64,000 nucleotides of DNA from Chlorobium sp. (GTDB lineage Bacteria > Bacteroidota > Chlorobiia > Chlorobiales > Chlorobiaceae). The DNA lies in the NCBI GenBank assembly GCA_005862285.1, contig SZXW01000010.1, positions 620,001 through 684,000 of the forward strand, in the 5' to 3' direction. The notes under the pieces are model-generated. The model did not search any database. It was not told the DNA's origin and worked only from the letters and a program-made list of their open reading frames with translations. The position numbers and the translations under genes are program-made. Shown here piece by piece: positions 24,360-34,681 of the stretch (positions are counted from its first letter, which is position 1; each line of letters opens with the position of its first letter).

Positions 24360-24581
24360 ATGCGTGCGACGGTAACAAAAATTGGTAATTCGACAGGCGT
24401 TATCCTGCCAAAGGCAGCGGCTGAGCGCCTTAAGGTCAAGCAAGGGGATGTTGTGTTTTTAACGGAAACGACAACAGGGTACACGGTCACACCCTATGAC
24501 CCTGAATTTGCAGAGCAAATGGAGGCGGCACGTCGCTGCATGTCCGAATACAAAAACGCTCTTCACGAGCTTGCTAAATGA
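24360..24581 (+). CDS. AbrB/MazE-type antitoxin
   Basis: A 73-residue DNA-binding antitoxin. The N-terminal swapped-hairpin domain is visible as 'VTKIGNSTGVILPKAAAERLKVKQGDVV', and the C-terminal tail (EQMEAARRCMSEYKNALHEL) would cover the toxin. GGAGG lies seven bases before the ATG. It overlaps the Doc toxin gene by four bases, which keeps the two proteins in balance. Confidence 0.88.
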   Translation: MRATVTKIGNSTGVILPKAAAERLKVKQGDVVFLTETTTGYTVTPYDPEFAEQMEAARRCMSEYKNALHELAK

Positions 24582-24973
24582 GTTGGCGCTGGCTTCTGGA
24601 TGGTGTGGTCATGGCGATACATGACGAACTGATTGCCGAGCATGGTGGAAGCACCGGGATTCGTGATGAAGGTCTTTTGTCGTCAGCCCTTGCCCGTCCG
24701 AAAAATCAAGCACACTATGGCGATCCGTCTGTCTTTGATTTGGCCGCTGCGTATGCCTACGGCATTATTCGCAATCATCCGTTTGTTGACGGCAACAAAC
24801 GCACCGGTTTTTTGGCTTCCTATGTGTTTCTGAATATTAACGGATGGCAACTGATATCGTCGGAAGCCGAAGCTGTTAACGCGGTCTTGGCTTTGGCGGC
24901 AGGTGAAATAGATGAACCCAGCTTTTCGGGCTGGCTGAAAAACAAGTCCGTTATTCAGTCAGAACAGGAATAA
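24578..24973 (+). CDS. doc: Doc-type toxin (Fic/DOC family)
   Basis: A 131-residue death-on-curing toxin. The Fic core motif is HPFVDGNKRTGFLA, which retains the catalytic His and the DGNKR anion hole. Doc kinases phosphorylate elongation factor EF-Tu. The length and the N-terminal 'HDELIAEHGGSTGIRDEGLLSSAL' match the family. It is normally a mobile stabilisation or defence module. Confidence 0.92.
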   Translation: MSWRWLLDGVVMAIHDELIAEHGGSTGIRDEGLLSSALARPKNQAHYGDPSVFDLAAAYAYGIIRNHPFVDGNKRTGFLASYVFLNINGWQLISSEAEAVNAVLALAAGEIDEPSFSGWLKNKSVIQSEQE

Positions 24974-25065
24974 CAAATGAAAGATCGAAAACATCTCGTT
25001 TCCGTTGAAGTTGAGTCGTAGCGGAAAGGGACATCCTGTATTGAAAACTCCAAACACAAAAATCC

Positions 25066-25755
25066 ATGCTGAAATCAATCCATTGTCGTAGCATTGATTT
25101 ATCGATTCTTGCCGGAATGATCATGTTGCTATTTCTTCCTCTGCGATCTGATGGAAGAATGAGAAGCGTGAACGAAAACATAAGGATCAAAACGCAGATT
25201 CCTGCCGGAACTATTTCGTTGTCTGCATACACGATTGGACAGGAATTCGGTGGTGGAATCATCTTTTATATCGACAGCACAAAACAGCATGGACTTATTG
25301 CCGCAAAAGAAGATATAACCAGTTCCTATACCGATGCATGGACCGGCATTCAGTTTATATCCCAGTTCAGGTGGAGTACCGGGCAATTTACGTTGCAGAA
25401 CGACACTGATTATGCTTTCAGAAAAGTTTATACCAGCACGGCTTTTGGGCAGGGTGCTTCCAATACGGATAAAATCCTTGCAAAATATCCCCCGTGGATT
25501 TATCCGAACACCGCAGCAGCTGTCGCAAGAGCATATCGGGGTGGAGGCTACAGTGACTGGTTTTTGCCCAGCAAGGATGAACTGCACCAGCTCGATTTGC
25601 AGAAATCCGTTGTCGGAGGTCTCGATGGAGATCTCTACTGGAGTTCGTCAGAAGATGGTTCCGAACATGCGTGGTACGAGAGTTTTCCTGCCGGCCATCC
25701 CATGTCTTATTATAAGTGGAGCTATAGTCGAGTGCGTCCAGTCAGGGCATTTTAA
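25066..25755 (+). CDS. DUF1566/Lcl-type secreted protein
   Basis: A 229-residue protein with a hydrophobic N-terminus (about residues 14-27), then a lectin-like domain of the DUF1566/Lcl_C kind. Features are 'IGQEFGGGIIFYID', 'GYSDWFLPSKDELHQL', 'DLYWSSSEDGSEHAW' and the C-terminal 'SRVRPVRAF'. Such domains are found in surface-exposed, carbohydrate-binding or sorting roles. It follows the toxin-antitoxin pair by 92 bp. A second protein of related architecture (FISUMP) lies at 35432. The function is unknown. Confidence 0.75.
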   Translation: MLKSIHCRSIDLSILAGMIMLLFLPLRSDGRMRSVNENIRIKTQIPAGTISLSAYTIGQEFGGGIIFYIDSTKQHGLIAAKEDITSSYTDAWTGIQFISQFRWSTGQFTLQNDTDYAFRKVYTSTAFGQGASNTDKILAKYPPWIYPNTAAAVARAYRGGGYSDWFLPSKDELHQLDLQKSVVGGLDGDLYWSSSEDGSEHAWYESFPAGHPMSYYKWSYSRVRPVRAF

Positions 25756-26093: not shown

Positions 26094-26127
26094 CGACCAT
26101 ATGGTCGCATTTTCGACTATACGGTCG
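26094..26127 (+). promoter_or_regulatory. tandem palindromes, probable NtrC-type enhancer
   Basis: A perfect 14-bp palindrome CGACCATATGGTCG (26094-26107) and a near copy CGACTATACGGTCG (26114-26127) are spaced exactly 20 bp apart. They lie about 90-123 bp upstream of a sigma-54 promoter. The arrangement is that of an upstream activating sequence for an NtrC-family protein, and the last gene of the operon encodes one. The gap 25756-26361 otherwise holds no convincing gene; a 43-codon open stretch at 25887-26018 has protein-like composition but no start signal. Confidence 0.6.
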
Positions 26128-26216
26128 GAAATGCTATCCTGTCATGTTGAGGGGATTAACGCTGATTGACTTGTAAATAGCAATAAAAAATAGGGATACG
26201 ATTTATTGCGTCTGAC

Positions 26217-26232
26217 TGGCATGTCTTTTGCA
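26217..26232 (+). promoter_or_regulatory. sigma-54 (-24/-12) promoter
   Basis: TGGCATGTCTTTTGCA matches the consensus TGGCACRNNNNTTGCW at all fixed positions but one. The invariant GG (26218-26219) and GC (26230-26231) are exactly ten bases apart. It lies 130 bp before the cytochrome gene and downstream of the tandem palindromes. Confidence 0.7.
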
Positions 26233-26361
26233 ATGACTGATTGGGTGTCACTTGTAACCTTCGGGACGGTTTGAAGGATAGCCGGGCTGATTCCGAGTGA
26301 TATACTCAGCATGAAACGAATACCAGTTATTCTGAAAAAATTATTACAAGGGAGTGTTGTT

Positions 26362-26799
26362 ATGAAAAAGATCATCTATGCGTGTATGGTATCCGGAATC
26401 GCTTCAGGGTTTTTACCGACTGTGATGTCGGCTGCAGTACTGAATGGCGAAGCTGTTTTTACCAGGAACTGCAGTGTCTGCCATTCCATCTACCCGCCTC
26501 CGAAATCAGCGCCGCCGGTCATTCCTCTGGCAAACCGCTACCATCAGAAATTTGCGACCAAAGAGGAGGGTGTTGCCCACATGGCGGCGTATTTGAAAAA
26601 CCCCGATAAAAACCAGGCCATCGATGTCCAGGCGGTATCCCGGTTCGGGCTCATGCCCGCACTGTCTCTTCCCGATGCGGAGCTGAAGGCGGTGTCGGAG
26701 TGGTTCTGGGAGCAGTACAATCCAGCAATGGGCAGAGGACGTGGCATGGGGAGAGGATGGGGGATGGGCAGAGGCCAGGGGCAGTGCATAAACCAGTGA
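26362..26799 (+). CDS. secreted monoheme cytochrome c with Gly/Arg/Met-rich tail
   Basis: A 145-residue periplasmic protein. The signal peptide runs to about residue 24 (…GFLPTVMSAA), the heme motif is CSVCH, and a likely axial Met is in 'RFGLMPAL'. The C-terminal 20 residues alternate Gly, Arg and Met (GRGRGMGRGWGMGRG), unlike a normal class I cytochrome, and may bind metal or a partner. The ATG at 26362 is preceded by GGGAG. It is the first gene downstream of the sigma-54 promoter and is followed after 13 bp by the DUF4405 gene. Confidence 0.82.
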   Translation: MKKIIYACMVSGIASGFLPTVMSAAVLNGEAVFTRNCSVCHSIYPPPKSAPPVIPLANRYHQKFATKEEGVAHMAAYLKNPDKNQAIDVQAVSRFGLMPALSLPDAELKAVSEWFWEQYNPAMGRGRGMGRGWGMGRGQGQCINQ

Positions 26800-26812
26800 C
26801 ATGGAGACGAAC

Positions 26813-27646
26813 ATGAAAAAAAGATTCAGCTGGAGGATTTTCATCAGTTTCGGACTGCTGCTTTCGTTTCTGATGCTGCTTGTTTCAGGCGTGATACTCT
26901 ATATCTCTCCTCCAGGCAGGGTGGCCAACTGGACGGACTGGCGAATGCTCGGTCTGACAAAAAGAGGGTGGATCAACCAGCACACGATTTTTGGTTTCGG
27001 TTTCATGATTTTGTCGATATTTCATCTTTTTTTCATCAACTGGAAGGCATTTCTGTCCTATCTGAAAACAAAGGCAAGCGCAGGGTTGAAAAGTCCGTTC
27101 GAGCTGTTCGTCAGCCTTTCGCTTGCGCTGTTTTTCGGGGTCGGGACCTATTTTTCCCTGCAGCCTTTTTCAGCGGTTATCGATTTCGGAAACAGCATCT
27201 CCGCATCATGGGAGCAGCAGGACAAGCAGCCACCCGTACCTCATGCCGAGGCCATGACGCTTGCCGAACTCGCACAGCAGCCGGGGCTGGGCGGTGATGC
27301 CGAAGCCCTGAAGGCGAAGCTCGAAAAAGCCGGATTCACAGTTGTGTCGGTTCAGGAGACCCTTGCCGAAATAGCCGTCAAGAACCATACAACGGCAGAA
27401 AATGTTTATAGATATATTGCTCCTGAAAAAAGAGGGGCGAAGATATTGCCGTCCGAAGGGCTTGGCCGTAAAACCCTTGAGGAAATAGCCAATGATAACG
27501 GAATATCGGCCGTTTCCCTGCAGCTGGCGCTTCGCCAGAAAGGTATTGAAGCCCAAACCGGCATGAGCATGAAAGATATAGCAGAAAAGAACCGTATCGG
27601 GATGAACGAATTACGCCGGATTATCGAAAACATGATAAGCCGGTAA
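26813..27646 (+). CDS. DUF4405 membrane protein with C-terminal repeats
   Basis: A 277-residue protein. The first 130 residues contain four hydrophobic segments with histidines ('NQHTIFGFGFMILSIFHLFFINWKAF' region), as in the cytochrome b-like DUF4405 family. The remainder is soluble and holds helical repeats of the form 'TLAEIAVKNHTTAENVYRYI', 'TLEEIANDNGISAVSLQLAL' and 'MSMKDIAEKNRIGMNELRRI'. These resemble tandem helix-turn-helix-like units. The partner is probably the cytochrome c encoded just upstream. GGAG lies seven bases before the ATG. Confidence 0.72.
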   Translation: MKKRFSWRIFISFGLLLSFLMLLVSGVILYISPPGRVANWTDWRMLGLTKRGWINQHTIFGFGFMILSIFHLFFINWKAFLSYLKTKASAGLKSPFELFVSLSLALFFGVGTYFSLQPFSAVIDFGNSISASWEQQDKQPPVPHAEAMTLAELAQQPGLGGDAEALKAKLEKAGFTVVSVQETLAEIAVKNHTTAENVYRYIAPEKRGAKILPSEGLGRKTLEEIANDNGISAVSLQLALRQKGIEAQTGMSMKDIAEKNRIGMNELRRIIENMISR

Positions 27647-27729
27647 GAATGTTCCGGCTTGGCGGTTGCTGTGTGAAAGGAATATTTCTGAAACAGATGA
27701 AACAGGAGAAGCTTAAGGAAAAAAGGGTA

Positions 27730-29739
27730 ATGATGCTTTCACCAAAGTATCTGGGAGGGCTGTTTACCCTTTTTGTGCTCCTGTTTCTCGGAACGGCGAT
27801 TTTCGAATATAACTACCGGAAATCCGAGATCGAACATGTCATGCGTGAAGAGGCCGCCCTGCTCATGCATGCACTGAGGGAAGGGGCTGAAAATGCCATC
27901 ACCGGTTACAATGAAAACAGAGCTCTCCTTACCGGAAGCCTTATCGATCAGCTTCGACTTATCGACCGCTTGGACAGACAGCATGAGCTGACTTCGGCGG
28001 ATCTTTCCACCATTGCCGGATCAAGCGGTATTTATCGCCTCAATATCTTCGATCGCAGCGGAAAGCGCGTCGCCTTCAGTTCGCCTCCCGATCATGCACC
28101 TCTCGAACGGGAGTGTGGTCACAGGATGTTGCTGCAGCCGGTTTTATCCGGCGAGAAGGATTCCCTGCTGCTCGGGATCAAAGAGAGCGCTTCCGGCCGT
28201 GGACCGCGGCTGATTGCCGCCGTCAGACGCAGCAGGGGCGGTGTGATTGCCGGTAATGTCGATGCGACAGGGCTGCTTGATCTGCGCCGGAAACTTGGTG
28301 TTGAACAGCTCATTCAGCGCATAGGAGCAGACAAGACCGGGATCGATTATATCATCTGGCAGGATACAAACCGAATTCTGGCCGCTACGCCGAATATTTC
28401 GAAAACATCGGTTGTCCGGCCGGACTCTTTTCTCGAATCGGCCATGCATACGCAGATACCGCTGACCCGGATGACCGAATTCGGCGGCAGAACGGTATTC
28501 GAAGTCGTGAATCCCTTTTATGACAACAAGACCAATATCGGGCTTTTACGCATCGGGCTGAAAGCGGATCATTTTACCGTCGCTCTTGAGAAGCTGCGAA
28601 ACCGTCTTTTCATGCTGCTTGGACTTGTTGCCATCGGAGCACTTGTCATGTTCAACCTCGTCATGGCTCGAAGAAATGAAACCGAAATGAAAGAGGCATA
28701 CCGGCGGGTACAGACATTTTCATCGACCATTCTTGAAAGCATGGCGGATGCGGTCGTTACGGTCGATGCCGACAGTGCCGTGACCCTGGTCAACAGACCG
28801 GCGGAAAAGCTCTTTCAGCTCTCATCGAAGGAAGCTCTCGGCAAACCGGTGCAGCTGGTATTTCCTGAATGCCCGGAATTTCTCTCCGGCATCATGGCTG
28901 CAAGAGAGAGTGGAACGCTCAATCGCGAATTTCTCTGTTCTGCAGGCGGCAGAGAGCATTGGCTGGCTGGGAATTTCAGCCTCATAACCGGAAGCGGAAA
29001 CCAGATCGAGGGAGCTGTTGCCGTACTTCGCGACCTGACGGAGCAGCGGGCGATGCAGCAGGTAATCGACCGGCAGGAAAAACTCCGGGCAATTGGAGAG
29101 CTGGCTTCGGGTGTGGCACATGAGATCAGGAATCCGCTGAACGCCATCGGTATACTGGCCCAACGTCTCGATATCGAATTCTCTCCGACTGCCGATGAAT
29201 CAGAATACCGCCATCTGGTTCGAACCGTGGTATCCGAGGTAAACCGTGTCAATACGATTATCCAGCGGTTTCTCAAATTCGGCCGGCAGCCGCAGCTTTT
29301 GCCGGTACCGGTGAACCTCGATGAGTATATAGCGAGTTATGGAACCGTTCTGCAGAGCGAGGCGGAAAAAAAAGATATCCGGTTTACAATACAGACCGGC
29401 TGTAAGAGAACGGTTGTGATCGACAGGGAGCAGATGCAGCAGGTGCTGCTCAATATCGTCCGAAATGCTGTTGAAGCCACCGCAAAAGGGGGAAGCATAG
29501 CTCTCAGGGTATACGGCCGTGGAAACGAGGCGGTCATCGAGATTGCCGATACCGGCACAGGAATTCCTGCCGCGAAACTGCCTGAAATATTCAACCTTTA
29601 TTTTACCACCAAAGATGACGGAACCGGAATGGGGTTGAGTATCGCGAACCAGATCGTGCACGCTCACGGGGGCATGATCGAGGTTTCCAGCAGGGAAGGA
29701 GAGGGGAGTGTCTTCAGCATTGTGCTCCCCTTTGCATAA
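27730..29739 (+). CDS. PAS-containing sensor histidine kinase (NtrB/ZraS-like)
   Basis: About 669 residues. The architecture is an N-terminal transmembrane helix, a roughly 270-residue periplasmic sensor region, a second helix near 'LFMLLGLVAIGALVMFNLVM', a PAS domain (VQTFSSTILESMADAVVTVD onward), then HisKA with phospho-acceptor HEIRNPLNAIG and an HATPase domain (NIVRNAVEA, DTGTGIP, GTGMGLSIA). This kinase class pairs with sigma-54 activators, and the activator gene follows after 41 bp. The start is uncertain; ATG codons at 27649 and 27697 are in frame, but AAGGA spacing favours 27730. Confidence 0.88.
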   Translation: MMLSPKYLGGLFTLFVLLFLGTAIFEYNYRKSEIEHVMREEAALLMHALREGAENAITGYNENRALLTGSLIDQLRLIDRLDRQHELTSADLSTIAGSSGIYRLNIFDRSGKRVAFSSPPDHAPLERECGHRMLLQPVLSGEKDSLLLGIKESASGRGPRLIAAVRRSRGGVIAGNVDATGLLDLRRKLGVEQLIQRIGADKTGIDYIIWQDTNRILAATPNISKTSVVRPDSFLESAMHTQIPLTRMTEFGGRTVFEVVNPFYDNKTNIGLLRIGLKADHFTVALEKLRNRLFMLLGLVAIGALVMFNLVMARRNETEMKEAYRRVQTFSSTILESMADAVVTVDADSAVTLVNRPAEKLFQLSSKEALGKPVQLVFPECPEFLSGIMAARESGTLNREFLCSAGGREHWLAGNFSLITGSGNQIEGAVAVLRDLTEQRAMQQVIDRQEKLRAIGELASGVAHEIRNPLNAIGILAQRLDIEFSPTADESEYRHLVRTVVSEVNRVNTIIQRFLKFGRQPQLLPVPVNLDEYIASYGTVLQSEAEKKDIRFTIQTGCKRTVVIDREQMQQVLLNIVRNAVEATAKGGSIALRVYGRGNEAVIEIADTGTGIPAAKLPEIFNLYFTTKDDGTGMGLSIANQIVHAHGGMIEVSSREGEGSVFSIVLPFA

Positions 29740-29780
29740 ACGTTTTTTTCGATAATGTTGTCAACAAGGATCAGGCTACG

Positions 29781-31139
29781 ATGGACAGTACCATACTTGT
29801 CGTTGAAGATGAAAGCATTCAGCTCGAGAGCATTGCGGGTTTTCTCTCCAAACAGGGTTACCGGGTGCTTAAAGCTTCGCATCCTCAGAGAGCCCTTGAG
29901 ATCGCCGGTGAAGAAGCTGTCGATATCGTGCTTTCCGATTTCAGAATGCCCGGGATGAGCGGCGTCGAGCTGCTGTCGGCATTGAAGCACCGTAATCCCG
30001 GTATCGAGGTTATCATCATGACTGCTTACGGAAGCGTGGAGTCGGCTATCGAGGCCATGAAACTCGGAGCGGTCGATTACATCACCAAACCAGTCGACCT
30101 TCACCAGCTTCAAACCATGATCCGCAACACCCTCGAGAGGAAGCAGCTTATCAGCGAAAACAGGCTTCTTCGAACACAGCTTTCGGAGCGGTTCGGTTTT
30201 CAGGGCATAATCTCGCAATCCTCCGCAATGGATCAGGTGATGAACATCGCCGGAAGGGTCGCCTCCAGCAATGCGGCGGTACTCATTACCGGAGAAACCG
30301 GAACCGGCAAGGAGCTCATCGCAAAAGCCGTTCATTTTTCCAGCTCCCGGTGTGACAAGCCCTTCATTGTGGTCAATTGTGCGGCACTTCCTGAAACCCT
30401 GCTTGAAAGCGAGCTTTTCGGTCATGAAAAAGGTGCTTTCACAGGAGCTGAAAGATTGCGGAGGGGACGCTTCGAAATGGCGCAGGGCGGCACTCTTTTC
30501 ATCGATGAAGTTGGCGAAATACCGCTCTCTCTGCAGGTAAAGCTGCTCAGGGTACTGCAGGAAAAAACGTTCGAGCGTGTGGGTAGTTCCACTCCCCTTA
30601 CGGCCGATGTGAGGATCGTTGCAGCGACAAACCGCGATCTGGAAGCGATGATTCGCGAGGGTTCGTTCCGCGCGGATCTCTACTACCGTCTCAATGTTGT
30701 CTCCATCCGGATTCCGCCGCTGCGGGAGCGCCGCGATGATATACCACCGCTTGTAGACACGTTTATTCGACGGTTCAGCGAAGAAAACGGAAAGCAGATC
30801 AACGGGATTTCAAGGGAGGCGATGGATGCCCTGATGAAATATTCCTGGCCGGGCAATGTACGTGAACTCGAAAATATCGTTCAGCAGTCCGTTGTGCTCT
30901 CCCGTTCTTCGACCATTACCAGGGACGATCTTCCCATCAGGTTATCCGAACCCCCTCCGGAAGGTTCCGGAACGGATGAGGGGCAGGGGACCTTTACCGA
31001 AAAGGTCGAAGCCTACGAGCAGGCGATGATTCTCGGAGCCATGAAGGAGGCCGGCAATGTGCAGACGCGGGCAGCGGAGATGCTTGGAATCAGCGAGCGG
31101 CACCTGCGGTACAAGCTGAAGAAATACGGCATGAAATGA
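29781..31139 (+). CDS. sigma-54-dependent response regulator (NtrC/ZraR family)
   Basis: A 452-residue transcription activator. The receiver domain has phospho-acceptor Asp53 (LSDFRMPGMSGVE). The AAA+ domain has Walker A GETGTGKE, the sigma-54 contact loop GAFTGA, Walker B GTLFIDEVGE and the R-finger region. The C-terminal Fis-type helix-turn-helix is 'TRAAEMLGISERHLRYKLKKYG'. It is the expected partner of the kinase encoded upstream. It is also the likely ligand of the tandem palindromes at 26094-26127, so the operon would activate itself. Confidence 0.92.
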   Translation: MDSTILVVEDESIQLESIAGFLSKQGYRVLKASHPQRALEIAGEEAVDIVLSDFRMPGMSGVELLSALKHRNPGIEVIIMTAYGSVESAIEAMKLGAVDYITKPVDLHQLQTMIRNTLERKQLISENRLLRTQLSERFGFQGIISQSSAMDQVMNIAGRVASSNAAVLITGETGTGKELIAKAVHFSSSRCDKPFIVVNCAALPETLLESELFGHEKGAFTGAERLRRGRFEMAQGGTLFIDEVGEIPLSLQVKLLRVLQEKTFERVGSSTPLTADVRIVAATNRDLEAMIREGSFRADLYYRLNVVSIRIPPLRERRDDIPPLVDTFIRRFSEENGKQINGISREAMDALMKYSWPGNVRELENIVQQSVVLSRSSTITRDDLPIRLSEPPPEGSGTDEGQGTFTEKVEAYEQAMILGAMKEAGNVQTRAAEMLGISERHLRYKLKKYGMK

Positions 31140-31520: not shown

Positions 31521-31763
31521 ATGAAAAAGCTGTTTTTGATCATTTTTCTGGGTACGTTTTTCAACGCTACGGCAAACGCTGCACCAAACACTGTCTTGAT
31601 TGCTGTATTTGATCATAGCCGACTGACTGCAGCAACGCAGTGTATCAGATGTCATAAGAGTAATCAACCCGATGATGATCGGCATCGTCAAACAAAGGAA
31701 AATTGCTCAACGTGCCATTCTACTGATCGCTGGAAACCGGTAATTAATAATGCAACGCAGTAG
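31521..31763 (+). CDS. small secreted diheme cytochrome c
   Basis: An 80-residue protein with a signal peptide (MKKLFLIIFLGTFFNATANAA) and two heme attachment motifs, CIRCH and CSTCH, about 22 residues apart. Extra histidines (FDHSRL, DDRHRQ) may be axial ligands. It is much smaller than usual diheme cytochromes and resembles one unit of multiheme proteins. It is probably a periplasmic electron carrier of the sulfur/redox island. No gene partner is on the same strand nearby, and a terminator follows 200 bp downstream. Confidence 0.8.
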   Translation: MKKLFLIIFLGTFFNATANAAPNTVLIAVFDHSRLTAATQCIRCHKSNQPDDDRHRQTKENCSTCHSTDRWKPVINNATQ

Positions 31764-32019: not shown

Positions 32020-32388
32020 TTAATGGCACCCATGACCCTGACATGCTTGTTGCGGTGTAACTTTTTTCAGGACTCCGCTGTTGAAACGTCTTAAAGTCTC
32101 TTCAAGCGTAGGGGCCATCTCTGCCATATAGACAGCAATCCCCATCGACTGCAGTTTGGCTGCTGCCCCGGCTCCAATTCCATTACACAGTAAAACACTG
32201 ATGCCGAGTCCTGAAAAGAAACCGGCAGGAGTGCATGATCCATGATCATGATGATTTGATGCATTGGGGATAATTTCAATAGTATTGGCATCCATATCGG
32301 CAACAGCATAAAAGGGTGCGCTGCCGAAATGGCCACACACTTTTGAACTCTGCCCTGCTTGTTCATCCAGCGGAACAATCACTTTCAT
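32020..32388 (-). CDS. NifX/NifB-C-like dinitrogenase cofactor family protein
   Basis: A roughly 122-residue protein of the dinitrogenase iron-molybdenum cofactor family (COG1433 type). The N-terminal 'VIVPLDEQAGQSSKVCGHFGSAPFYAVAD' and the core 'VLLCNGIGAGAAAKLQSMGI' match. Histidines and cysteines cluster in 'ASNHHDHGSCTPAG' and the C-terminal QGHGCH, suggesting metal binding. The start at 32388 is preceded by GGAG at nine bases. Standalone members are not limited to nitrogenase maturation and often accompany DUF134 proteins, one of which is at 34226. Confidence 0.82.
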   Translation of the reverse strand: MKVIVPLDEQAGQSSKVCGHFGSAPFYAVADMDANTIEIIPNASNHHDHGSCTPAGFFSGLGISVLLCNGIGAGAAAKLQSMGIAVYMAEMAPTLEETLRRFNSGVLKKVTPQQACQGHGCH

Positions 32389-32551
32389 AGGTTTTTTCTC
32401 CATTGCTTGTTTGCGAATTCATTTGTTTTCCCCTCTGGCCACGCCATCCCTTCGGGCAACTTTCATACCTCTGAACCAGACTATAAGGCTGAAGAGCCTG
32501 CTCATATTCTCTGTGATTTGTTGACATTTCCTTTTCAGTTATGCAAATCAC

Positions 32552-32580
32552 TTGTTTTATTATGAGCATATGATTATAAT
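32552..32580 (+). promoter_or_regulatory. sigma-70-like promoter of the OsmC/flavoprotein genes
   Basis: TTGTTT (32552-32557) and a perfect TATAAT (32575-32580) are separated by exactly 17 bp, 38 bp before the OsmC-like ATG at 32619. This is the best housekeeping-type promoter seen in the window. Confidence 0.65.
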
Positions 32581-32618
32581 TGTAAGTAAGGTGTATTGCA
32601 AACATTTTCTGTTTTTTT

Positions 32619-33032
32619 ATGAAAAGTGAAATGATCATTACGTTTGCCGGTGGAAAGAAGGTCAATGCAGAGTATGGCGATTTTACCATTCAGACCGACC
32701 AGTCTCCATATGCAGGGGGAGAGGGTTCCGCTCCTGAACCGTTTACCTTGTTTCTGGCTTCAATCGGTACCTGTGCCGGTATTTTTGTCCTGTCTTTCTG
32801 CCAGAGCAGAAGTATTCCTACAGATGGAATCCGACTCGTTCAGTCTCATTTTGTCAGGGAGTCAGGCCGGGGCATAGGAAAAATCGAAATTGCCATCGAG
32901 CTGCCATCGGACTTTCCGGAAAAATACAAGGATGCGGTTATCAGCGCAGCAAATCTCTGCGCGGTTAAAAAGCACATTCAGGACCCACCCGAATTTGTTG
33001 TTAAAACAGTTCACGGTAATCATCAGGGTTAA
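32619..33032 (+). CDS. OsmC family protein
   Basis: A 137-residue OsmC-fold protein. The first conserved Cys is in 'FLASIGTCAGIFVLSFCQSR' and the second in 'VISAANLCAVKKHIQDPPEF', which are the expected helices. It differs from the copy at 22829 and resembles the 'predicted redox protein' branch. It starts a plus-strand run with the SQR-like flavoprotein 18 bp downstream, so a role in reactive sulfur or organic persulfide handling is plausible. Confidence 0.82.
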   Translation: MKSEMIITFAGGKKVNAEYGDFTIQTDQSPYAGGEGSAPEPFTLFLASIGTCAGIFVLSFCQSRSIPTDGIRLVQSHFVRESGRGIGKIEIAIELPSDFPEKYKDAVISAANLCAVKKHIQDPPEFVVKTVHGNHQG

Positions 33033-33050
33033 AGAGAGAGTGCGAGAGAG

Positions 33051-34223
33051 ATGAAAAAAGTGATGATTCTGGGCGGAGGTATTAGCGGTGTCGCTGCGGC
33101 CATCGCATTCCGTAAAAAAGGATTTGATGTCGAACTTGTTTCGGAACGGGACTACCTGTTTATCTATCCTATATCGATATGGATTCCGGTTGGAACAGCA
33201 GAGTTCAGTGATGTTTCAATACCTCTCTCCAAACTGGCCAGGAAGCACGGGTTTCTTCTCACTGTCGACAAGGTTCTTGCTCTCGATGGGATTAATAAAA
33301 CGGTTACTCTTGCAAGAGGAGGTCTTCGTCACACTTCATCCCTTGTTGTGGTCGCTCTTGGTGCTTCAAAACTGAACCCTCAGGGAATTGAGCATACGCT
33401 TTCAATTTGTGGTAAACCGGAAGATTCCCTGGAGCTGAAAAACAGGATAAAAGAGCTTGTTAGAAGAGGTTGCGGCAACATAGCATTCGGATTCGGCGGT
33501 AATCGCCTGGACCCAAGCGCTGTCAGAGGTGGGCCAGCATTTGAGCTTTTTTTCAATCTGCATCATCATCTTGAAAAACTTGGCATTCGTGACCGCTTCG
33601 AGATGACCTTTTTCGCTCCCATGGCGGAACCGGGAGCCCGGATGGGAAAAAAGACCCTTGCAGCATTGGGAAGCATGTTTACGGCCAACAACTTCAAGAC
33701 ACATTACGGGAAAAAAATCAGCCGGTTTGAAAAGAACGGTATTGTTTTTGACGACCAGAGCGTGCTCGAGAGTGATCTGATCATGTTTATTCCGGCGAGT
33801 GAAGGTCATGAAGTAATAAAAGCCTCCAACCTTCCTCAAAACGAGGCGGGTTTTATTCGTATCGATAATTTCTGCAGGGTAGAAGGTATACCCGGATGGT
33901 ACGGTATCGGTGATGTCGCGGCTCTTGATGGCCCCGAATGGAAGGCAAAGCAGGGGCATATTGCTGAATTTATGGCAGGAGTCGCTGCTGGTATTGCATC
34001 AATAGAGCATCTTGGTCGAGAGGGGAACATGGAGGGTTATCAGCAACATTTAAATATTCTCTGTGTGATGGATATGGGTAATGGGGCCGGATTTATCTAT
34101 AAAGACAGTTTCCGGGAGCTTTTTATTCCGATGCCGATTGTCGGGCATTGGCTCAAAAAAAGCTGGGGGATTTACTACAAACTTTCAAAAATGGGAAGAA
34201 TTCCACGAATTCCCGGGATGTAA
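33051..34223 (+). CDS. SQR-superfamily FAD oxidoreductase (middle Cys missing)
   Basis: A 390-residue flavoprotein. The N-terminal dinucleotide fold is 'VMILGGGISGVAAAIAFRKKG', and the second FAD block is 'GWYGIGDVAAL'. It resembles sulfide:quinone oxidoreductases, including an amphipathic C-terminal region that would sit on the membrane. Of the three Cys of canonical SQR, Cys120 (LSICGKPED) and Cys338 (ILCVMDMGNGAG) have counterparts. The middle one, normally just before the GPAYEF-like block, is absent; the block reads RGGPAFEL. It may therefore use another substrate or a different mechanism. DUF134 follows after 2 bp. Confidence 0.85.
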   Translation: MKKVMILGGGISGVAAAIAFRKKGFDVELVSERDYLFIYPISIWIPVGTAEFSDVSIPLSKLARKHGFLLTVDKVLALDGINKTVTLARGGLRHTSSLVVVALGASKLNPQGIEHTLSICGKPEDSLELKNRIKELVRRGCGNIAFGFGGNRLDPSAVRGGPAFELFFNLHHHLEKLGIRDRFEMTFFAPMAEPGARMGKKTLAALGSMFTANNFKTHYGKKISRFEKNGIVFDDQSVLESDLIMFIPASEGHEVIKASNLPQNEAGFIRIDNFCRVEGIPGWYGIGDVAALDGPEWKAKQGHIAEFMAGVAAGIASIEHLGREGNMEGYQQHLNILCVMDMGNGAGFIYKDSFRELFIPMPIVGHWLKKSWGIYYKLSKMGRIPRIPGM

Positions 34224-34225
34224 AG

Positions 34226-34681
34226 ATGAACGATAGAAGAGTTGGCCGACCGACCCAGTGCCGGTCGGTTCAGGACTTGCCGAAGGTTACCTGTTTCAAA
34301 CCGGATGGCATTCGACAAAAAAGGCTTGAAAGCGTCCTGTTGACGGTTGATGAACTGGAAGCGATCAGACTGGCGGACTTGCTGGGTTTATACCAGGAGG
34401 AGGCGGCAAAGCAGATGAATGTATCGCGACCTACCTTCGGCCGTATACTTGAAGCCGCAAGAAAAAAAGTGGCTGAAGCCATTGTCGAAGGCAAGCAGCT
34501 TTGTATCCAAGGCGGTGTTGTTCGTTCGCTTTGCGATTCTGTTCCATCCACTCGTCCTGATATTTGTGTTTGTCCGGATTGCGGCTTTGAACTTCCGCAC
34601 ATGAAAGGGGAGCCTTGCAGAGAGACAACCTGTCCTCAATGCGGGGCGGGATTGACGCGAAAGGGTGGATGCCTTTCCTGA
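34226..34681 (+). CDS. DUF134 DNA-binding protein
   Basis: A 151-residue protein of the DUF134/UPF0251 family. The N-terminus is 'GRPTQCRSVQDLPKVTCFKPDG', and the helix-turn-helix is visible in 'YQEEAAKQMNVSRPTFGRILEAARKKVAEA'. A zinc-ribbon-like tail carries four Cys in 'CVCPDCGFELPH' and 'CPQCGAGL'. Members often occur with NifX-like proteins, as here (32020). It is probably a redox- or metal-responsive regulator of the surrounding genes. Confidence 0.85.
   Translation: MNDRRVGRPTQCRSVQDLPKVTCFKPDGIRQKRLESVLLTVDELEAIRLADLLGLYQEEAAKQMNVSRPTFGRILEAARKKVAEAIVEGKQLCIQGGVVRSLCDSVPSTRPDICVCPDCGFELPHMKGEPCRETTCPQCGAGLTRKGGCLS

Follow-up and report, generated by a model that had tools for sequence, protein, structure and literature searches.

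A candidate Chlorobiaceae-specific sigma-54 regulon marked by tandem palindromes and a local kinase and NtrC-type regulator

The 64,000-nucleotide stretch of Chlorobium sp. DNA analysed here (the window), which comes from a 2.61-Mb genome of the Chlorobium family, carries at 26094-31139 a tandem pair of palindromes, a sigma-54 (σ54) type promoter, and genes for a c-type cytochrome, a DUF4405 membrane protein, a sensor histidine kinase, and an NtrC-type response regulator. Sequence comparison makes it very likely that these elements form a two-component σ54 regulon specific to Chlorobiaceae and subject to positive autoregulation. The main traits behind this reading are (i) the co-occurrence of pair and regulator across the family, (ii) the presence of a σ54-type promoter beside the pair at regulator loci, and (iii) a clustered operator-promoter distance. 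The initial annotation of this DNA had proposed enhancer-type tandem sites, a σ54 promoter, and a local kinase and NtrC-type activator as one regulatory unit, and the family-wide comparison supports that proposal.

The upstream operator (CGACCATATGGTCG, 26094-26107, no strand) is a perfect palindrome, conserved in relatives and proposed as a site for the NtrC-type regulator. The second operator (CGACTATACGGTCG, 26114-26127, no strand) follows after a 6-bp gap and is an imperfect palindrome with two of its seven base pairs mismatched. Both lie where they were first placed, with starts 20 bp apart, and are of the type CGACC-N4-GGTCG. As a joint 34-bp tandem pattern they occur at a single place in the window and in none of 100 shuffles of it, and with two mismatches allowed, the core tandem pattern matches the whole genome only at the window pair. 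At the same threshold, a backwards control pattern yields two matches per strand in this genome, such that exactness is the distinctive feature of the pair. Single sites at up to two mismatches are near background: the genome has 49 and 50 of them, and 40 and 43 matches to the control pattern.

The −24/−12 promoter (TGGCATGTCTTTTGCA, 26217-26232, + strand) lies 89 bp after the operators and is conserved in relatives. Within the window, TGGCATGTCTTTTGC at 26217-26231 is the sole exact match to the −24/−12 pattern, which is weak on its own (five matches with up to one mismatch, against 2.9 expected). Promoters of the σ54 type need an NtrC-type activator. The genome also encodes rpoN (G000:C13:18169-18645, E = 2.7e-55), the gene whose absence had been named as fatal to the initial proposal.

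The four genes downstream of the promoter follow the order and coordinates initially annotated, all on the + strand. The first (26362-26799) encodes a monohaem c-type cytochrome (CSVCH; PF00034) that is probably exported, judged by eye from its N terminus; its Gly/Arg/Met-rich end varies among relatives, and the earlier reading of this end as a metal tail has been dropped. The second (26801-27646) encodes the DUF4405 membrane protein (PF14358, 60.1 bits against a cut-off of 26.7), a proposed b-type cytochrome with a C-terminal helical repeat region. The sensor histidine kinase (27649-29739) contains PAS, HisKA, and HATPase_c domains as well as a weak sCache_3_2 match below the cut-off. The response regulator (29781-31139) combines a Response_reg receiver, a Sigma54_activat AAA+ domain with the GAFTGA motif for σ54 interaction, and a Fis-type helix-turn-helix (HTH_8), the composition expected of an NtrC-type protein, and its helix-turn-helix is nearly invariant in orthologues.

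Across 86 Chlorobiaceae genomes searched for both the tandem pattern and the regulator, the latter is present in 39 (E ≤ 1e-150). With up to two mismatches, the tandem pair is found in 35 of these 39 and in 1 of the 47 regulator-negative genomes (p = 2e-18); with up to three, the counts are 38/39 and 2/47 (p = 8e-21), although these p-values overstate independence because the genomes are interrelated and are not true probabilities. The four genomes missed at the stricter threshold are G087, with a 7-bp gap, G159 and G187, with three mismatches each, and G170, represented by a contig of 3,083 bases. At three mismatches the backwards control shows no association with the regulator (10/39 versus 12/47, p = 1). 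In a class-wide search of 98 genomes, the pair at up to two mismatches occurs in 36, all of them Chlorobiaceae, and in none of the 12 genomes outside the family.

Conservation of the palindromes upstream of homologous operons, on which the initial proposal had been made to depend, is evident from the eight genomes (the window, L024-L028, L060, and L062) that share the window-type order of cytochrome c, DUF4405, and kinase genes. Both palindromes and the −24/−12 element align in all eight, where the palindrome centres vary, the arms are largely kept, and the −12 element of three (L028, L060, and L062) reads TTGA and not TTGC. The window and L024-L028 show the regulator gene as well; L024-L028 correspond to the contigs of G166, G036, G168, G194, and G125 and so enter the family-wide counts. 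The contigs of L060 and L062 are cut before the regulator position. No palindromes were found on two contigs without a kinase gene, L029 and L030, which is weak evidence because both contigs end early (~1.2 kb and 365 bp after DUF4405, respectively) and the kinase and regulator genes may lie beyond them.

The arrangement of the window is one of several. Of 39 further stretches that were fetched, 38 contain the regulator, which together with the window gives 39 regulator loci. Pair and promoter are found at 37 of these, the two misses (L184 and L186) being short contigs. A pair follows the regulator at 31 loci, precedes it at 14, and is present on both sides at 8; six loci, the window among them, have it upstream only. 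From the end of the regulator match to the start of the downstream pair there are 13-54 bp in 30 of the 31 cases and 188 bp in L180. This pair precedes DxDGDG genes, often a barrel gene, and often cytochrome c and DUF4405 genes (the names DxDGDG protein and barrel were coined in this analysis). Nine loci (the window, L148-L154, and L181) have a pair ahead of the cytochrome c and kinase/regulator genes, and these cluster together in the regulator tree with a Shimodaira-Hasegawa-like approximate likelihood ratio test (SH-aLRT) value of 90, from a quick method and with rooting for drawing only; the tree was built without L186, whose contig does not display the window arrangement. Within this group, L150 has no DUF4405 gene, and L150-L152 carry a second pair after the regulator, ahead of a DxDGDG gene. 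The window clade thus seems to have put redox genes and the regulators themselves under the switch. The description of the module as self-contained holds for the window genome, where one pair was found, but not elsewhere, given the predominance of pairs after the regulator and the additional copies in six genomes described below. The window is one rearranged form of the regulon, and self-containment is the arrangement of one clade.

The spacing of these elements is strongly clustered. When gaps of 0-15 bp between the palindromes were tested at up to three mismatches, 45 of 50 matches had a gap of 6 bp, four a gap of 7 bp, and one a gap of 3 bp. For pairs with up to four mismatches, the distance from the end of the pair to the closest TGG-N8-TTG located 40-140 bp away was measured in 55 instances and is 86-90 bp (48 instances), 75-79 bp (6), or 98 bp (1), with none at 80-85 or 91-97 bp. 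After spacers with at least 70% gapped identity are collapsed, 33 remain (27, 5, and 1, respectively), and collapsing at 65% leaves 24 (18, 5, and 1). Similarity among the 33 spacers is at the level of their own shuffles (57% versus 56% gapped identity) while the distances remain clustered, and therefore length is kept where sequence is not. TGG-N8-TTG itself occurs in 513 of 8,000 random 120-bp windows from the same loci. Indels of a helical repeat have been proposed as a fingerprint of enhancers on the basis of synthetic enhancers and Vibrio qrr genes (PMC4740811). Indels of about one helical turn are tolerated in those σ54 systems, which differ from the present one in regulator and operator, whereas the distances here fall into the three clusters given above.

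In the spacer, the columns at positions −41 and −20 relative to TGG score above every one of 500 block shuffles, and these AT-rich, promoter-anchored columns suggest a further protein or a bend. In the window, the corresponding element is tentative and was placed by eye at 26174-26198 (no strand), between the operators and the promoter; its conserved bases are A at position −41 and T at position −20. A site for integration host factor (IHF) was rejected in its consensus form, which is present in 1 of 42 spacers.

Target genes were scored in 40 stretches, including the window and L185, the latter without a regulator; a match within a stretch is not proof of operon membership. DxDGDG genes are the commonest (32), followed by those for cytochrome c (24), DUF4405 (24), the barrel (21), and a two-haem cytochrome (8), and the two short contigs have no target-gene match. 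In 11 of the 40 stretches, DxDGDG and barrel genes occur with no match to cytochrome c, the two-haem cytochrome, or DUF4405. Whole-genome counts for the barrel are 21/39 among regulator-positive and 0/47 among regulator-negative genomes, although G184 and G188 among the 21 have short fragments; for the DxDGDG protein they are 29/39 and 3/47, respectively. The DxDGDG proteins appear from their N termini, inspected by eye, to be small and exported, and the barrel is a putative outer-membrane protein with a weak, below cut-off match to a putative β-barrel porin family. Six further loci (L187-L192), all in regulator-positive genomes, combine a pair with one to four mismatches, a DxDGDG gene, and a promoter spaced 87-90 bp from the pair; the extra copy lies ~760 kb from the regulator in G071 and 55 kb from it in G199. 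No DxDGDG match was found in the stretches examined for the window, L148, L149, L153, L154, and L181, the last of which ends inside the regulator, and a genome-wide search detected neither a DxDGDG nor a barrel-family gene in the window genome.

These observations can be accommodated in a single scheme. A signal at the envelope, possibly related to redox state or metals, would cause the membrane kinase to phosphorylate the NtrC-type regulator, an oligomer of which would bind both tandem palindromes. From one fixed face of the helix ~89 bp upstream, the regulator would loop onto σ54 RNA polymerase and open the −24/−12 promoter. In the window genome, no target was found besides the regulator's own operon, such that autoregulation would provide positive feedback on the sensor and the output would be an electron-transfer pair of the membrane and periplasm, consisting of the c-type cytochrome and the putative b-type DUF4405 cytochrome. 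In relatives, the same switch stands ahead of genes for DxDGDG proteins, the outer-membrane barrel, and redox genes, and the output is thus most likely a set of envelope-located proteins.

It is very improbable that a different transcription factor uses the tandem sites, with the neighbouring regulator as a bystander. Such a reading draws on G153 and G177, where the pattern occurs without a regulator match, and it is opposed by the co-occurrence of pair and regulator in 35/39 versus 1/47 genomes and by the 37 regulator loci at which a nearby pair is followed by a promoter of the kind that depends on such an activator. G177 is furthermore an 82%-complete genome in 520 contigs that has the pair, the promoter, and a DxDGDG gene, and for this reason its regulator may simply be missing from the assembly. 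Horizontal transfer of the module as a compact unit, as had been suggested initially, was not borne out and is considered unlikely: its patchy presence (39/86 genomes) and its several different gene neighbourhoods would be in keeping with transfer, but the pair is confined to a single family among the 98 genomes of the class, the window-type regulators form one tree group, and the window, L148, and L154 have three left-flank genes in common. Against the preferred reading of a family-specific, autoregulated regulon stand, besides the two genomes with an orphan pattern and the relatedness of the sample, (i) the three-mismatch background, with the backwards control matching 22 of 86 genomes, (ii) the G087 match at that threshold, which is an unrelated chance match, the real pairs of this genome having a gap of 7 bp, (iii) G024 and G165, which are regulator-negative yet contain a DxDGDG gene, in stretches without a pair under the filter used for the extra loci, (iv) the extra copies in G056, G162, G191, and G202, which lie on another contig than the regulator, their true distance being uncertain in these drafts, (v) the 16 of 40 stretches without a cytochrome c match (two of them the short contigs, and one the regulator-less L185), and (vi) the DUF4405 genes, which are not tied to the regulon in general because they occur in 28 of 31 sampled Chlorobiaceae irrespective of the regulator.

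Two proposals for the function of the regulon are compatible with this preferred reading. A response to envelope stress or divalent cations by analogy with ZraPSR (HydHG), the enterobacterial zinc/envelope system, in which the DxDGDG protein would be the main output and the cytochromes would have been recruited as passengers, is a real possibility that falls somewhat short of probable. In its favour, the DxDGDG gene is the commonest target and is also a target elsewhere in the genome. Against it, DxDGDG is a putative cation-binding motif, neither of the two proteins run against Pfam matched a family significantly, and five of the nine window-arrangement loci, and likewise L181, have no DxDGDG match in the stretch and retain cytochrome c and DUF4405. 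ZraR drives the periplasmic ZraP and its own zraSR from σ54 promoters (PMC4987338), which parallels the sensor kinase, the NtrC-type regulator, and the σ54 promoters for an exported small protein and for the regulators seen here, whereas the promoters here are not divergent and the operator is the CGACC-N4-GGTCG type. The likeness to ZraSR noted in the initial annotation therefore stands as a functional resemblance and not as family membership, since scores in the NCBIfam equivalog test are 194.8 for ZraS (cut-off 479) and 434.5 for ZraR (cut-off 760). The best NCBIfam matches, AtoC (534.3 against 714) and AtoS (298.1 against 646), are likewise below their cut-offs, and no acetoacetate gene was found among the ten neighbouring proteins scanned.

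The second proposal, an iron(II) or metal-redox switch that is itself controlled by metal or redox state and governs a conduit of inner-membrane DUF4405 protein, c-type cytochromes, and outer-membrane barrel, is tentative and on the improbable side. In its favour, another DUF4405 protein binds haem b and the family is linked to extracytosolic and membrane electron transfer (PMC11334425), barrel, c-type cytochromes, and DUF4405 occur together at some loci of relatives, and the window genome contains a Cyc2-like fused cytochrome-porin (FARQTGFSCTACH; G000:C1:464819-466162, L208:1820-3163), so that iron(II) oxidation is a possibility in this organism. However, Cyc2 is present in 13/39 regulator-positive and 9/47 regulator-negative genomes (p = 0.15), which is not a significant co-occurrence with the regulator, and iron oxidation was rejected as the purpose of the module; the 11 stretches with DxDGDG and barrel genes alone as well as the absence of a barrel of this family from the window genome also argue against the proposal. 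These Cyc2 counts are from the protein search alone (22/86 genomes), the motif search (44/86) having included FARKY-type cytochromes. The module barrel and the haem proteins of relatives resemble Cyc2 in pairing a haem protein with an outer-membrane barrel, but they are encoded by separate genes and are not fused, and BLAST finds no significant similarity between the two barrels (best E = 0.11). A structure model of the barrel from three sequences (predicted local distance difference test, pLDDT, 36.6) was too poor for use. Still less probable, though not at odds with the family-specific regulon, is an undescribed switchable envelope electron conduit in which a DUF4405 b-type cytochrome, small c-type cytochromes, the barrel, and DxDGDG proteins would be governed by one σ54 two-component system with its promoter geometry on one helix face, different lineages keeping different subsets.

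No description of this regulon was found in the searches made of open-licence PubMed Central papers. For the green sulfur bacteria, it would amount to a concrete σ54 regulon that can be tested, with its operator and target list defined, and it would place DUF4405 cytochromes and two protein families so far uncharacterised under a single switch. With their dissimilar spacers, the promoters at these distances (75-79, 86-90, and 98 bp) furthermore offer a naturally occurring test of whether helical phasing matters in σ54 enhancers, to set beside the synthetic enhancers and Vibrio qrr genes used in PMC4740811.

The DUF4405 protein of the window resembles the DUF4405/FezC cytochromes in its PF14358 match and in two invariant histidines, H61 and H75, which are conserved in 24 aligned sequences and lie in a predicted helix (54-79). 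The published model has six helices (PMC11334425), whereas three hydrophobic helices per chain are discernible here by eye, followed by the extra C-terminal repeats; a six-helix, four-histidine fold would hence need a dimer. A further difference is that no flavinylation gene is present among the ten neighbouring proteins scanned. The structure model (pLDDT 71.4, predicted template modelling score, pTM, 0.32) has no PDB match at E ≤ 0.001. Several DUF4405 paralogues (L043, L045, L047-L049, and L051-L054) end in CxxCH, as if fused to a two-haem cytochrome piece, which hints that DUF4405 and the two-haem cytochrome are partners. A second DUF4405 match in the window genome (G000:C1:89933-90403) contains an in-frame TAG.

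A small c-type cytochrome with two CxxCH motifs is encoded just downstream of the regulator (31521-31763, + strand). It was absent from the initial annotation, has no tandem pair of its own in the window, and is a tentative member of the unit; in several relatives, its homologue sits between the cytochrome c and DUF4405 genes. Its sequence is resembled by the repeats (LHSSAGANCSTCHGTSGWKP) of a multihaem cytochrome (L210:446-1687) that adjoins cyc2. Another small c-type cytochrome gene precedes the Cyc2-like gene.

On the left of the module, Fic-family and Lcl_C-domain genes (24578-25755) are situated between it and the flank shared with L148 and L154, and these genes were not found in the other stretches. 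On the right, NifX-like, OsmC-like, pyridine nucleotide-disulphide oxidoreductase, and DUF134 genes (32020-34681) adjoin the module, and several other loci have relatives of these genes close to the module or to cytochrome c/DUF4405 genes. One relative has a second NtrC-type regulator gene near the module (L162:13069-14472).

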